Source of the DNA: Xanthomonas sontii | GTDB taxonomy: Bacteria > Pseudomonadota > Gammaproteobacteria > Xanthomonadales > Xanthomonadaceae | Length of the DNA stretch: 64,000 bases | Assembly: GCF_040529055.1 (NCBI RefSeq) | Contig: NZ_CP132342.1 | Coordinates: forward strand, 1,203,001-1,267,000 | Direction of reading: 5' to 3' | In this document: piece by piece, positions 32,554 to 48,256 of the stretch | How the letters are laid out: each line of letters begins with the position of its first letter | How positions within the stretch are numbered: position 1 is the stretch's first letter | The notes under the pieces: model-generated | Databases searched by the model: none | Seen by the model: the letters and a program-made list of their open reading frames with translations, nothing else | Told to the model about the DNA's origin: nothing | Program-made: the position numbers and the translations under genes

Positions 32554-33420
32554 TCAGCGCGGGGTGGCGCGGAGCAACTGCCGGAAGGCGTCGTCCAGCG
32601 CGCGCTGGTCGCCGCTGCCAGCGGGCAGTTGCGGGGCACCTGCTTCCATCCTGCCCAGCTCCGCGTCCAGGAAATCGCTGATCGCCGGAATCCGCGGGCC
32701 GTCTTCGACCTCGGCCGATGCGCGTTTCTTGTCCAGCAAGGCATCGATCGCCTCGCGCAGGGCGCCAGAGGGAACCAGGGCGTCCAGCAGCGACGCGAAG
32801 GCCATCGGCGGCATGCCGTGCCCACGCTCGATCCATTGGCAGGCCAGCACGGGGCGCAACACGTACAGGTACTTCTTGGTGCGGATGCGCTCGCCGCGCA
32901 GATAGCCGCGGTAATTGCCCTTGGCCATGCTGAAGTAATGCCACCAGGTCGCCACCGGCGAATAGAAGCGCTCGGCCATCTCCCGCAGCGTCGCCACGGC
33001 CGCGGCGTCCTGCCGGTACACCACCGGCGACTGCAGCCACTCCAGCAAGGTCGGGTTGGATTTGGACACCAGGCGCAAGGCCTTGCGCAGATCCCAGCCG
33101 CTGACGTCCAGGTCGCTGTCGATCGGCAACTCGATCACGTCGCGCTGCGGTTCGCCCGGCCCGGTCCGTTCGTTGACGGTGAGGTACCAGTCCGGCCGAT
33201 GCACATAGACGAAGCGCGCGTCGTAGTCGCTGTCGGGCGAGGAAAAGCCCCAGCCGCGGCTACCAGATTCGCAGGCTAGCAGGATGCGGACGTCGTGGCG
33301 CTGTTCGATGTCCTGCAGCGCGGCGAGCACGGCAGCGCGCTTGTCGGCGGCGATCGGGTGGATCGCCATGTCGGGCGAGGCGGAGGGCGCGGTCGCTGCA
33401 GCGTCGTTCGAAGGCGTCAT
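32554..33420 (-). CDS. Predicted nucleotidyltransferase (DNA polymerase beta superfamily, YcgL/COG3541-like)
   Basis: This 288-aa protein has the nucleotidyltransferase signature GSRGWGFSSPDSDYDARF (about residue 53) with two metal-binding aspartates. The long helical C-terminal region (WWHYFSMAKGNYRGYLRG) is typical of COG3541. Substrate is unknown; some relatives sit in RNA repair operons. Its ATG overlaps the mnmG stop (ATGA at 33420), so it is translated with the tRNA-modifying enzyme, suggesting an RNA-related role by inference. Confidence 0.8.
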   Translation of the reverse strand: MTPSNDAAATAPSASPDMAIHPIAADKRAAVLAALQDIEQRHDVRILLACESGSRGWGFSSPDSDYDARFVYVHRPDWYLTVNERTGPGEPQRDVIELPIDSDLDVSGWDLRKALRLVSKSNPTLLEWLQSPVVYRQDAAAVATLREMAERFYSPVATWWHYFSMAKGNYRGYLRGERIRTKKYLYVLRPVLACQWIERGHGMPPMAFASLLDALVPSGALREAIDALLDKKRASAEVEDGPRIPAISDFLDAELGRMEAGAPQLPAGSGDQRALDDAFRQLLRATPR

Positions 33421-35309
33421 CACGCCACCCGGCTGCGCCGCGCGCGTTCCAGGTGCACCAGTAGCAGCGAGATCGCCGCCGGGGTCATGCCGGGGATGCG
33501 CTGCGCCTGGCCCACGGTCTGCGGGCGCACGCGCTCGAGCTTCTGCTGCACTTCGGCCGACAGGCCGCGCACCTGCGCGTAGTCGAAGGCGGGCGGGATC
33601 GGGGTGTCCTCGTGGCGCTGCTGGCGGGCGATCTCGTCGCGCTGGCGGTCCAGGTAGCCGGCGTACTTGATGCCGATCTCCACCTGCTCCGCCACCTGCG
33701 CGTCGGCCACGCCCGGGCCCAGCGACGGCACCCGCATCAGCGCGGCGTAGTCCAGTTCCGGGCGCTTGATCAGGTCCAGCACGGTGGTCTCGCGGCTCAC
33801 CGCCACGCCGAGCGTCGCCGCGACCTCGCGGCCCAGCGCGTTGCCCGGCGTGGCCCACAGCGCACGCAGGCGCTCGTTCTCGCGCGCCACCGCCTCCTGC
33901 TTGGCCTGAAAGCGCGCCCAGCGCGTTTCGTCGACGATGCCCAGGTCGTGGCCGATGCCGGTCAGGCGCGCGTCGGCGTTGTCCTCGCGCAGCTGCAGCC
34001 GGTACTCGGCGCGGCTGGTGAACATGCGGTACGGCTCGCTGGTGCCGTGGGTGATCAGGTCGTCGATCAGCACGCCGATGTAGGCCTGGTCGCGGCGCGG
34101 CGACCATGGTTCCAGCCCGCGCACCTGGCGCGCAGCGTTGAGGCCGGCGATCAGGCCCTGCGCGGCGGCTTCCTCGTAGCCGGTGGTGCCGTTGATCTGG
34201 CCTGCGAAGAACAGCCCGGGCATGGCCTTGGTCTCCAGCGAGGCCTTGAGCCCGCGCGGATCGAAGAAGTCGTACTCGATGGCGTAGCCGGGGCGGGTGA
34301 TGTGCGCGCGCTCGAAGCCGCGGATCGAGCGCACCAGCTCCAGCTGCACGTCGAACGGCAGCGAGGTGGAGATGCCGTTGGGGTAGATCTCGACCACGTC
34401 CAGGCCTTCCGGCTCGACGAAGATCTGATGGCTGGCCTTGTCGGCGAAGCGCACCACCTTGTCCTCGATCGAGGGGCAGTAGCGCGGGCCGATGCCCTCG
34501 ATCTGGCCGGTGTACAGCGGCGAGCGGTCCAGCGCGCCGCGGATGATGGCGTGGGTGCGCTCGGTGGTGTGGGTGATCCAGCACGACACCTGGCGCGGAT
34601 GCTGCGCCACCTCGCCCAGGAACGACATCACCGGCAGCGGATCGTCGCCGGGCTGTTCCTCCATCGCCGCGTAGTCCAGGCTGCGCCCGTCGATGCGCGG
34701 CGGGGTGCCGGTCTTGAGCCGGTCCACGCCGAAGCGGCCGTCGCGCAGCGCCTGCGCCAGCGCGGTGGCCGGCGGATCGCCGGCGCGGCCGCCGGCGTAC
34801 TGGGTCTGGCCGATGTGGATCTTGCCGGCCAGGAAGGTGCCGGCGGTCAGCACCACCGCCGCGGCCTCGAAGCGCAGCCCGGTCTGGGTCAGCACGCCGC
34901 GCACGCGCTCGCCGTCCATCACCAGGTCGTCCACCGCGGCCTGGAACACGGTCAGGTTCGGCTGCGCCTCGACCAGGCGCCGGATCGCGCTGCGGTACAG
35001 GCTGCGGTCGGCCTGGCAGCGGGTCGCGCGCACCGCCGGGCCCTTGGAGGCATTGAGGGTCCGCCACTGGATGCCGGCCAGATCCGCGGCGTGGGCCATC
35101 GCCCCGCCCAGCGCGTCGATCTCCTTGACCAGGTGGCCCTTGCCGATGCCACCGATCGCCGGGTTGCAGCTCATCGCCCCCACCGTCTCCACGTTATGGG
35201 TCAGCAGCAGGGTGCGCGCGCCGGCACGCGCGGACGCCAGCGCCGCCTCGGTGCCGGCATGGCCGCCGCCGATCACGATCACGTCATGGCGGTAGAAGGA
35301 ATCGCTCAT
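33420..35309 (-). CDS. mnmG: tRNA uridine-5-carboxymethylaminomethyl modification enzyme MnmG (GidA)
   Basis: This 629-aa FAD protein, with MnmE, installs the cmnm5 group on wobble U34 of certain tRNAs. The FAD-binding motif [20 protein letters not shown] is at the N-terminus, with [28 protein letters not shown] and the C-terminal helical domain ending in a basic tail. The start [12 protein letters not shown] at 35309 was chosen over 15 upstream in-frame residues. The downstream nucleotidyltransferase gene overlaps its stop. Confidence 0.97.
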
Positions 35310-35423
35310 CGGGGTCTCGTCGGCCGGCGCGGGGCCGGCGGCAGGGGGCGACACGGGACGTCGCCCGGGGTGTGAACAGGAATTTTAGCGGTTGCATCAC
35401 AAATTGCGGATCCGGGCCTCAAG

Positions 35424-35440
35424 TTGGCACGCAATCTGCA
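35424..35440 (+). promoter_or_regulatory. Sigma54 (-24/-12) promoter
   Basis: TTGGCACGCAATCTGCA matches the sigma54 consensus (TGGCAC, N5, TTGCA) with one mismatch and exact 12-nt GG-to-GC spacing. Transcription should start near 35450 and run into the terminator at 35533-35566. Confidence 0.75.
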
Positions 35441-35449
35441 GATATTCCC

Positions 35450-35566
35450 ACTGCACCCAACGTGGCAATGCGTCAGGGGCGTATGACTGGAATTGGAACA
35501 GGGGCCAGTCACGCGCACGTTGGGGGAGCTGGGGGCCGGTAGTCGGGGGACTACCGGCCCTTTTTT
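35450..35566 (+). ncRNA. Candidate sigma54-dependent structured small RNA, about 117 nt
   Basis: Between divergent mnmG and the next terminator there is no coding frame, but the transcript predicted from the sigma54 promoter folds well. CCCAACGTG (35456-35464) pairs with CACGTTGGG (35516-35524), and TGACTGG (35484-35490) pairs with CCAGTCA (35505-35511). A 12-bp terminator hairpin with T6 follows. Two identical CAGGGG hexamers (35474-35479 and 35499-35504) lie in unpaired positions, and the terminator loop is GGGG. I do not recognise a named family. The TSS is inferred. Confidence 0.6.
35533..35566 (+). terminator. Strong rho-independent terminator
   Basis: GGGCCGGTAGTC pairs with GACTACCGGCCC around a GGGG loop and is followed by TTTTTT at 35561-35566. 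Confidence 0.95.
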
Positions 35567-35622
35567 ATGCCCGTTTTTCGCCGGTCGCCGGCGCCACCCC
35601 AGCAATGGCAAGGCCCCAACGC

Positions 35623-35650
35623 GAAAAGCCCCGGCGAACCGGGGCTTTTC
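35623..35650. terminator. Bidirectional rho-independent terminator
   Basis: GAAAAGCCCCGG, loop CGAA, then CCGGGGCTTTTC: a 12-bp stem with A- and T-rich flanks able to stop transcription both ways, including that of the minus-strand lipoprotein gene ending at 35819. Confidence 0.85.
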
Positions 35651-35818
35651 GTTGTGAGGCGCCGACGCCCGACAGGGCCGGAACAGGGGGGATCCAGATT
35701 TCCCTGTCGGACATCGACATAGACGGTGGGGTCGACCCCTTCGGGTCATAAAGCGACGCAGGCGGTCACCCCGTAGGACGTAGAGTGCGTGCTGGAACAG
35801 GCGAACGCAAGCCCTTTC

Positions 35819-36343
35819 TTAGGGTTCGAGTGTGCGACGTGTCCCATTGCTGCGACCCATATTGCCGGGGCGCGGCGCCGGCGGGCGCTGCATGCCCTCG
35901 GGACGCTGCATCGCCGGCCGGGCCGGCTGCATCGATTGCGGCCGCGGTGCCGAATTGAGCGCGTCCGGACGGCGCAGGCGGTCCATGTCGCGCCACGGCG
36001 TCGGTACCCGACCACCCACGCTGGGCGGCGGCGGCGGCGGCGGCCGCGAGCCGCCGTCGTCCGGCCGCGGACGCGGTGGCGGGCGGTGGCGCGGGCCATC
36101 GTAGCCACGGTAGTAGTAATACGGCACGCCGTACCCGTAGTAGCCGTAATAGGACGGGCCGTAGCCGTAGTAGGGCACCGCGCCGTAGGGCGAGTAGTAC
36201 TCGGAGTAGCCGGCCGGGTAGCGGTATTCGACCGACGGGGCGCCACGGTAGTAGCCACCCTCGCCGCCTCCGGCGTAATCGTAGGTGGCACAGCCGCCCA
36301 GTGCGGCCAGCAGTCCAGCGGCGCAGATCAGGCGCAGTTTCAT
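35819..36343 (-). CDS. Tyr/Pro-rich predicted lipoprotein
   Basis: This 174-aa protein has a lipobox (LLAALGGC, Cys near 18). It continues with a Tyr/Gly-rich region (YYGYGPSYYGYYGYGVPYYY) and a Pro/Arg-rich tail. The composition suggests an extended or disordered surface protein anchored in the outer membrane. No catalytic motif and no family recognised beyond general low-complexity lipoproteins. A bidirectional terminator lies 170 nt downstream. Confidence 0.75.
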   Translation of the reverse strand: MKLRLICAAGLLAALGGCATYDYAGGGEGGYYRGAPSVEYRYPAGYSEYYSPYGAVPYYGYGPSYYGYYGYGVPYYYYRGYDGPRHRPPPRPRPDDGGSRPPPPPPPSVGGRVPTPWRDMDRLRRPDALNSAPRPQSMQPARPAMQRPEGMQRPPAPRPGNMGRSNGTRRTLEP

Positions 36344-36507
36344 GGCGTTTGCCCTCCAGCAGGCTGGCTGACAGGTTCGGTCCGTGGCATTGAATCCCCC
36401 CTTAACTCCATCGGCTGCACTTGAACGCTTAAGTTGCGCGCAACGACGGCGAACCGGCGCGAGTCGCGGGCGCTGCACGTTGGCGACGATACGCTACCCT
36501 TTCGCGC

Positions 36508-48179: not shown

Positions 48180-48256
48180 GCGCCCGTAGCTCAGCCGGAT
48201 AGAGTAGTGGCTTCCGAAGCCATTGGTCGGGGGTTCGAATCCCTCCGGGCGCGCCA
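48180..48256 (+). tRNA. tRNA-Arg (anticodon CCG)
   Basis: The 77-nt cloverleaf has acceptor GCGCCCG/CGGGCGC, encoded CCA (48254-48256), anticodon stem-loop GGCTTCCGAAGCC (anticodon CCG) and T-loop GGGGGTTCGAATCCC. A -10-like TAGAAT is at 48163-48168 with no clear -35. No integrase or att duplication is seen downstream. Confidence 0.97.

Follow-up and report, generated by a model that had tools for sequence, protein, structure and literature searches.

Qrr, CrcZ, and GlmY are small RNAs (sRNAs) driven by sigma54, and some of them act as decoys. In enteric bacteria, sRNA sponges are RNAs that sequester a regulatory sRNA by base pairing. The sRNA asX1 was reportedly described by Schmidtke et al. 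in 2012 (NAR). According to the accessible portions of the respective papers, crcZ is under RpoN/CbrB (PMC8657755), and sX13 represses mRNAs with G-rich motifs via C-rich loops (PMC3771888). The corresponding portions of other papers annotate asX1 in Xylella (PMC12189769) and record asX1 transcripts in Xylella and X. campestris (PMC12189769, PMC4652430).

We analyzed a 64,000-nucleotide stretch of Xanthomonas sontii DNA (the whole stretch is referred to here as the window) that carries an asX1 gene (RF02235) beside mnmG; a sigma54-type promoter and a convergent partner RNA are added here to what is described for this family. Like Qrr, CrcZ, and GlmY, asX1 is a short structured RNA behind a sigma54-type promoter, whereas its presumed target differs in being another sRNA, encoded convergently. 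A scan of the window at Rfam gathering scores returned no Qrr, CrcZ, or GlmY match, only asX1 and one tRNA gene (48180 to 48253). The partner resembles sX13 (RF02232) in that it is also a predicted structured sRNA with a C-rich apical loop, but it has no RF02232 match (by gathering score or with a cutoff of E ≤ 10), has a single C-rich loop, and lies beside mnmG, whereas sX13 is placed downstream of polA in the accessible text. Unlike in the enteric sponges, asX1 and its partner are neighbors with separate promoters that occur together in several families, and the putative sponge has the sigma54-type promoter. The sigma54 control of asX1 and the convergent complementary sRNA appear to be undescribed within the literature searched. 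In the accessible text of that literature, a scope outside which the founding asX1 paper lies, no paper links asX1 to sigma54 or to the partner RNA, and no promoter class, partner, or function is given for asX1. The words "small RNA" are likewise absent from the accessible portions of two RpoN transcriptome papers (PMC3224663, PMC7970052).

Sequence comparison directly shows the two RNA genes and their conservation, along with their promoters, terminators, and complementary loops. We put the probability at roughly one-half that they form a two-sRNA module, in which RpoN-driven asX1 would sequester a constitutive sRNA with a C-rich loop.

The asX1 gene and its sigma54-type promoter

The features of the asX1 side of the locus are as follows.

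33420 to 35309, minus strand: mnmG (gidA), the divergent neighbor (TIGR00136, 886 bits)
35424 to 35439, plus strand: -24/-12 sigma54-type promoter TTGGCACGCAATCTGC (exact position; kept across asX1 loci)
35454 to 35567, plus strand: asX1 sRNA (RF02235 cmscan match, covariation), start expected at 35451 to 35454
35495 to 35504, plus strand: asX1 loop segment GGAACAGGGG, complementary to the partner loop (sequence)
35531 to 35566, plus strand: asX1 intrinsic terminator, loop GTC-GGGG-GAC (sequence)

The RNA at 35454 to 35567 matched asX1 over the whole covariance model (cmscan; positions 1 to 115 of 115) with 117.8 bits against a gathering score of 70; the RNA itself is thus already known. Its closing stem is CCCAACGTG/CACGTTGGG, and its inner hairpin is TGACTGG/CCAGTCA. 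The fold energy of 35451 to 35566 is -63.9 kcal/mol (z = -5.8), and none of 200 shuffles was equally stable. In an alignment of 53 nonredundant homologues, in which the rows from a pattern search have two patterned segments fixed by that pattern, standard pairs filled 95.1% of the pair cells and 21 of 30 pairs were changed on both sides. None of 500 shuffles reached either measure, and none of the slid registers came near the observed pairing. A mechanical 119-codon frame with a TTG start (35392 to 35751) crosses the region; because the indels between asX1 homologues are not multiples of three, we do not read this frame as coding.

At E ≤ 0.001, RF02235 matched 266 of 297 Xanthomonadaceae genomes, 229 of them above the gathering score, and none of the 14 controls had a match. 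A model rebuilt from the 53 nonredundant sequences matched 7 of 20 Rfam-negative genomes of the family and, across the order, 21 of 121 genomes, namely, 19 in Xanthomonadaceae and 2 in a family designated f3. Two records are unusual. In Stenotrophomonas panacihumi, asX1 occurs twice in inverted orientation at the end of a contig (L146:22-80 and L146:519-577), through either a duplication or an assembly fault, and a record titled Bacillus subtilis SK7B5 (L096) contains a locus of Stenotrophomonas-like form, probably because of contamination or a wrong label.

Sites resembling the sigma54 motif with at most one mismatch occur six times in the 64-kb window, against 3.5 expected, and one of them is exact. 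Given that the motif alone does not exceed chance, we tested the conservation of the -24/-12 position instead. A pattern scan based on the RNA only gave at least 120 asX1 matches in at least 119 stretches, of which two were set aside as too near the locus end. Among the matches listed, the best sigma54 match within 400 nt lay 63 to 73 nt upstream of the RNA core at 118 of 118 asX1 loci, with scores of 11/11 (66 loci), 10/11 (51 loci), or 9/11 (1 locus). Over 15 such positions, dinucleotide shuffles reached a score of 9 in 43 of 5,900 trials. In the set selected with the Rfam model, all 70 loci from 66 genomes scored at least 9/11 (4 of the 70 repeat genomes, and the species overlap with the 118 pattern-selected loci). 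Seven extra loci from Rfam-negative genomes had the promoter at 9/11 to 10/11 in six cases; the seventh (L204) scored only 8/11, in the right place, and its draft genome gave no RpoN match. Both f3 loci had a 9/11 promoter together with ACAGGGG and the partner word. The conserved element at a fixed distance qualifies asX1 as a candidate sigma54-dependent sRNA.

The mnmG gene is divergent and upstream of asX1 in 178 of 188 loci among those listed. The MnmG protein of the window shares 98.6% identity with that of Xanthomonas sp. F10 (L121). Eight loci (L041, L048, L063, L076, L086, L104, L158, and L177) had no mnmG match beside asX1, with only 345 nt available upstream at L076; promoter, asX1, and partner were still together in these. 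An earlier note on this DNA had pointed to a sigma54-dependent structured sRNA between mnmG and a lipoprotein gene, with a -24/-12 element, a textbook terminator, two compensating stems, and no coding frame between. The mnmG neighbor, promoter, terminator, stems, and noncoding character are all borne out, and both the stems and the promoter are conserved beside mnmG in relatives. The part of its reading that survives is a sigma54-type promoter before a structured noncoding RNA; the suggestion that the RNA belongs to no named family and might be undescribed does not, since it is asX1. For the supposed lipoprotein frame (35819 to 36388), no NCBIfam model matched.

Three further kinds of site were noted. 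On the minus strand, a sigma54-like site at 35453 to 35468 (one mismatch, in the GG of -24) is antisense to the asX1 5' end and directed toward mnmG; it probably exists only because the RNA sequence is conserved. The two f3 genomes carry a sigma54-like CTGGCACGTTTTCTGC scoring 10/11 (L228:1920-1935 and L229:1913-1928) shortly upstream of a frame with an ATGGAT start. In 39 of the 188 listed loci, a CRP/Clp-like palindrome (TGTGA-N6-TCACA, at most one mismatch) begins exactly 38 nt upstream of the -24 box, and every one of the 12 palindrome-bearing loci with an organism title is from Xanthomonas. The copy in the window (35386 to 35401) lacks the left half. The palindrome could tie asX1 or mnmG to Clp.

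The convergent candidate sRNA

Downstream of asX1, the plus strand holds a second conserved block that repeats the ten letters GGAACAGGGG in 178 of 181 loci with sufficient sequence among those listed. The other three also have the block: at one, a base of the search word differs, and at two (L040 and L074, Lysobacter profundi), the block lies upstream of asX1 and is turned onto the opposite strand, which puts the partner gene on the strand of asX1, still adjacent to it. The earlier note overlooked this region (35622 to 35810), whose features, read on the minus strand, are as follows.

35782 to 35810, minus strand: partner promoter-like TTGCGT-N17-CACTCT (box pattern across loci)
35622 to 35775, minus strand: partner sRNA, without a name, convergent with asX1 (fold, covariation, promoter); start predicted from the promoter
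35742 to 35771, minus strand: partner upstream hairpin H1 (4 pairs, 92.9% of cells paired)
35661 to 35720, minus strand: partner hairpin H2 with a C-rich apical loop (fold z, covariation)
35680 to 35695, minus strand: partner loop GGATCCCCCCTGTTCC, complementary to the asX1 loop (sequence)
35622 to 35649, minus strand: partner intrinsic terminator (sequence/fold, seen in the window)

The strand is indicated by the fold of the block (z = -4.9 as the minus strand versus 0.0 as the plus strand), by RNAalifold (-36.6 versus -17.9 kcal/mol), and by 152 G-U cells; the second hairpin is disfavored as a plus-strand RNA. Of the cells in the partner alignment, 94.9% were paired, and 17 of 24 pairs were changed on both sides (shuffles, 0 of 500), including 13 of the 16 pairs in the long helix of H2. 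The promoter-like box pair was present upstream in 108 of 146 distinct loci, against 1.2 expected from shuffles, and an H1-like word occurred in 130 of the 146 (a count without shuffle control). We therefore propose that a second structured sRNA gene faces asX1 on the minus strand; it is probably expressed and apparently undescribed within the literature searched.

No Rfam family accounts for the partner; the best match was rsmX (RF02144), at 24.2 bits against a gathering cutoff of 56. A partner model matched 78 of 250 genomes of the order (53 in Xanthomonadaceae, 4 in family f11, and 21 in family f12) and 9 of the 20 family genomes negative for asX1 by Rfam. With a hairpin model built from four families and strict filters, 5 of 369 genomes of the class matched, and all five belong to the order of the window. 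The partner was present at the asX1 loci of all 66 Rfam-model genomes. The window genome has a single exact copy of the partner's 16-letter word and one further site with a mismatch.

In f11 and f12, we examined 20 stretches from 19 of the 25 partner-positive genomes. Eighteen of the 20 had mnmG, a sigma54 element scoring 9/11 to 11/11, a much diverged asX1-like RNA, and a convergent partner; the two misses (L288 and L290) are weak second-site matches without mnmG. All 18 asX1-like RNAs kept CAGGGG. Across families, the layout, the promoter, and a CAGGGG facing the partner loop persist.

Loop complementarity and candidate activators

The sequence CCCCTGTTCC in the partner loop is exactly complementary to the asX1 loop. 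Over all 181 listed pairs, the longest perfect complement was 10 nt in 161, 9 nt in 19, and 6 nt in 1, against a shuffle mean of 6.2; these figures include four loci (L031 to L034) that duplicate genomes already counted. For the 113 of the 181 pairs that were selected by pattern, the pattern itself dictated 9 nt on the asX1 side, and the 66 Rfam-model genomes, from which the duplicates were removed, are therefore the fairest set. Among these, 64 had the exact partner word downstream of asX1, and their longest perfect loop complement spanned 10 nt (58 genomes), 9 nt (5 genomes), or 6 nt (1 genome). Some asX1 variants keep the pairing as G-U, namely, GGAGCAGGGG in L322, L325, and L326 and GGAACGGGGG in one locus.

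In f11, two loci with a short asX1-like RNA had an 11-nt complement in a shifted register (CAGGGGGAATC with GATTCCCCCTG; shuffles, 0 of 300), and two other loci had complements of 8 nt (P = 0.003) and 7 nt (P = 0.04). The 14 f12 loci had complements of 7 nt (10 loci) or 6 nt (4 loci) that were not significant (per-locus P, 0.07 to 0.54). Mean unpaired probabilities in the f11 and f12 pairs were 0.35 to 0.92 and 0.78 to 0.96. Duplex energies over the whole length of asX1 and partner, calculated for 20 pairs, were mostly no better than those of shuffles. These energies are uninformative; the case for pairing rests on the conserved loops, whose complementarity fits a pair formed by an sRNA and its sponge.

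The window genome encodes nine strong sigma54-activator domains, one of which (L197) was left out of the reference set in a comparison with eight small genomes that have asX1. These eight encode a PilR-type activator in eight cases, NtrC in seven, and a third type in three. The activator of the window genome that we take to be FleQ-like has no clear orthologue among them (nearest, 45% identical). NCBIfam gives the PilR-type protein no name; the label rests partly on a neighboring histidine kinase and a sucC-like gene and is in part our assumption. Promoter and partner are present in all eight (L321 to L326; G149, which is L065; and G002, which is L040, with the partner moved), and the one without NtrC (G182) has a promoter scoring 9/11. 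By co-occurrence, PilR is the best-placed candidate activator. A link to nitrogen or flagella, as suggested in the earlier note, is not supported: NtrC is present in seven of the eight and a clear FleQ-like orthologue in none, against PilR in all of them. In 154 distinct stretches upstream of asX1, neither NtrC-like nor PilR-like words were enriched; a site inside mnmG or of other sequence is possible. In Xylella, the accessible text of one paper lists only NtrC and PilR as such activators (PMC3224663).

We found rpoN in 41 of 45 genomes tested. Absence of rpoN was not supported as the cause of missing asX1, given five genomes of one genus (g9) with rpoN yet without an asX1 or partner match.

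A possible sponge module and its alternatives

In the module that we propose, the RpoN (sigma54) polymerase would transcribe asX1, which would then be made only when an enhancer-binding protein, possibly PilR, is active and switches it on. The partner, transcribed from its sigma70-like promoter, would presumably always be on, and its C-rich loop could bind G-rich sequences close to translation start sites, in the manner of sX13. On the asX1 side, the loop sequence ACAGGGG, extending at most to GGAACAGGGG, would form a kissing interaction with the partner loop, so that induced asX1 may act as a sponge that frees the targets of the partner. A broader reading, which we hold tentatively and rate slightly short of an even chance, is that of an old sigma54-gated switch beside mnmG in several families: RpoN, probably via PilS-PilR, would have asX1 disable the C-loop sRNA and derepress mRNAs with G-rich leaders, and the loop complementarity would have been selected while the sponge diverged. 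The family-wide sigma54-type promoter would provide the input for asX1, and the convergent complementary RNA would be its first candidate target. If this is true, RpoN signaling in Xanthomonas, Stenotrophomonas, Lysobacter, and relatives would also be post-transcriptional.

The loop match might have no function between the two RNAs: the -24/-12 element could be real and asX1 unrelated to the second RNA, the two being neighbors by descent. Both flank mnmG and would be co-inherited, and the duplex energies do not speak for pairing. However, the two most constant loops are exactly complementary, and the adjacency survives both rearrangement and loss of mnmG; we consider mere neighborhood quite unlikely. 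We judge it very unlikely that asX1 uses GGA motifs in its loops to titrate a protein such as RsmA, with the partner match as a by-product. Such motifs are suggested by a GGAACA that is invariant in the 53-row alignment (where it is pattern-fixed in the pattern-search rows), but GGAACA before GGGG was kept in 0 of the 18 asX1-like RNAs of f11 and f12, whereas CAGGGG was kept in every one. Most improbable in our estimation is that asX1 mainly targets sX13, which is present in the window genome and whose loops are also C-rich (CCCC, CCCC, and CCCCC in the accessible text of PMC3771888). In that genome, the longest complement between asX1 and sX13 is 8 nt (CTGGCCCC) and lies outside any C-rich loop, versus 10 nt with the partner, and sX13 was set aside as a target on these grounds.

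The complementarity is itself symmetric, and the direction could be the reverse: asX1 would regulate mRNAs by pairing a G-rich seed with C-rich leaders, and a threshold would be set by the constitutive partner acting as its sink. Antisense to one match (L231), the window genome has a 5' leader that carries CCCCCTGTTCC about 30 nt upstream of an ATG, but this is one site and may be chance. The partner loop is also more constant across families, whereas the asX1-like RNA diverges except for CAGGGG, a difference that fits asX1 as the sponge; we regard the reversed direction as unlikely. The L231 match (G000:C1:1113332-1113347) has its leader on the opposite strand, before the ATG of a frame beginning MKIRFQACLLALLLALPAAS, and represents either a candidate asX1-paired mRNA or chance.
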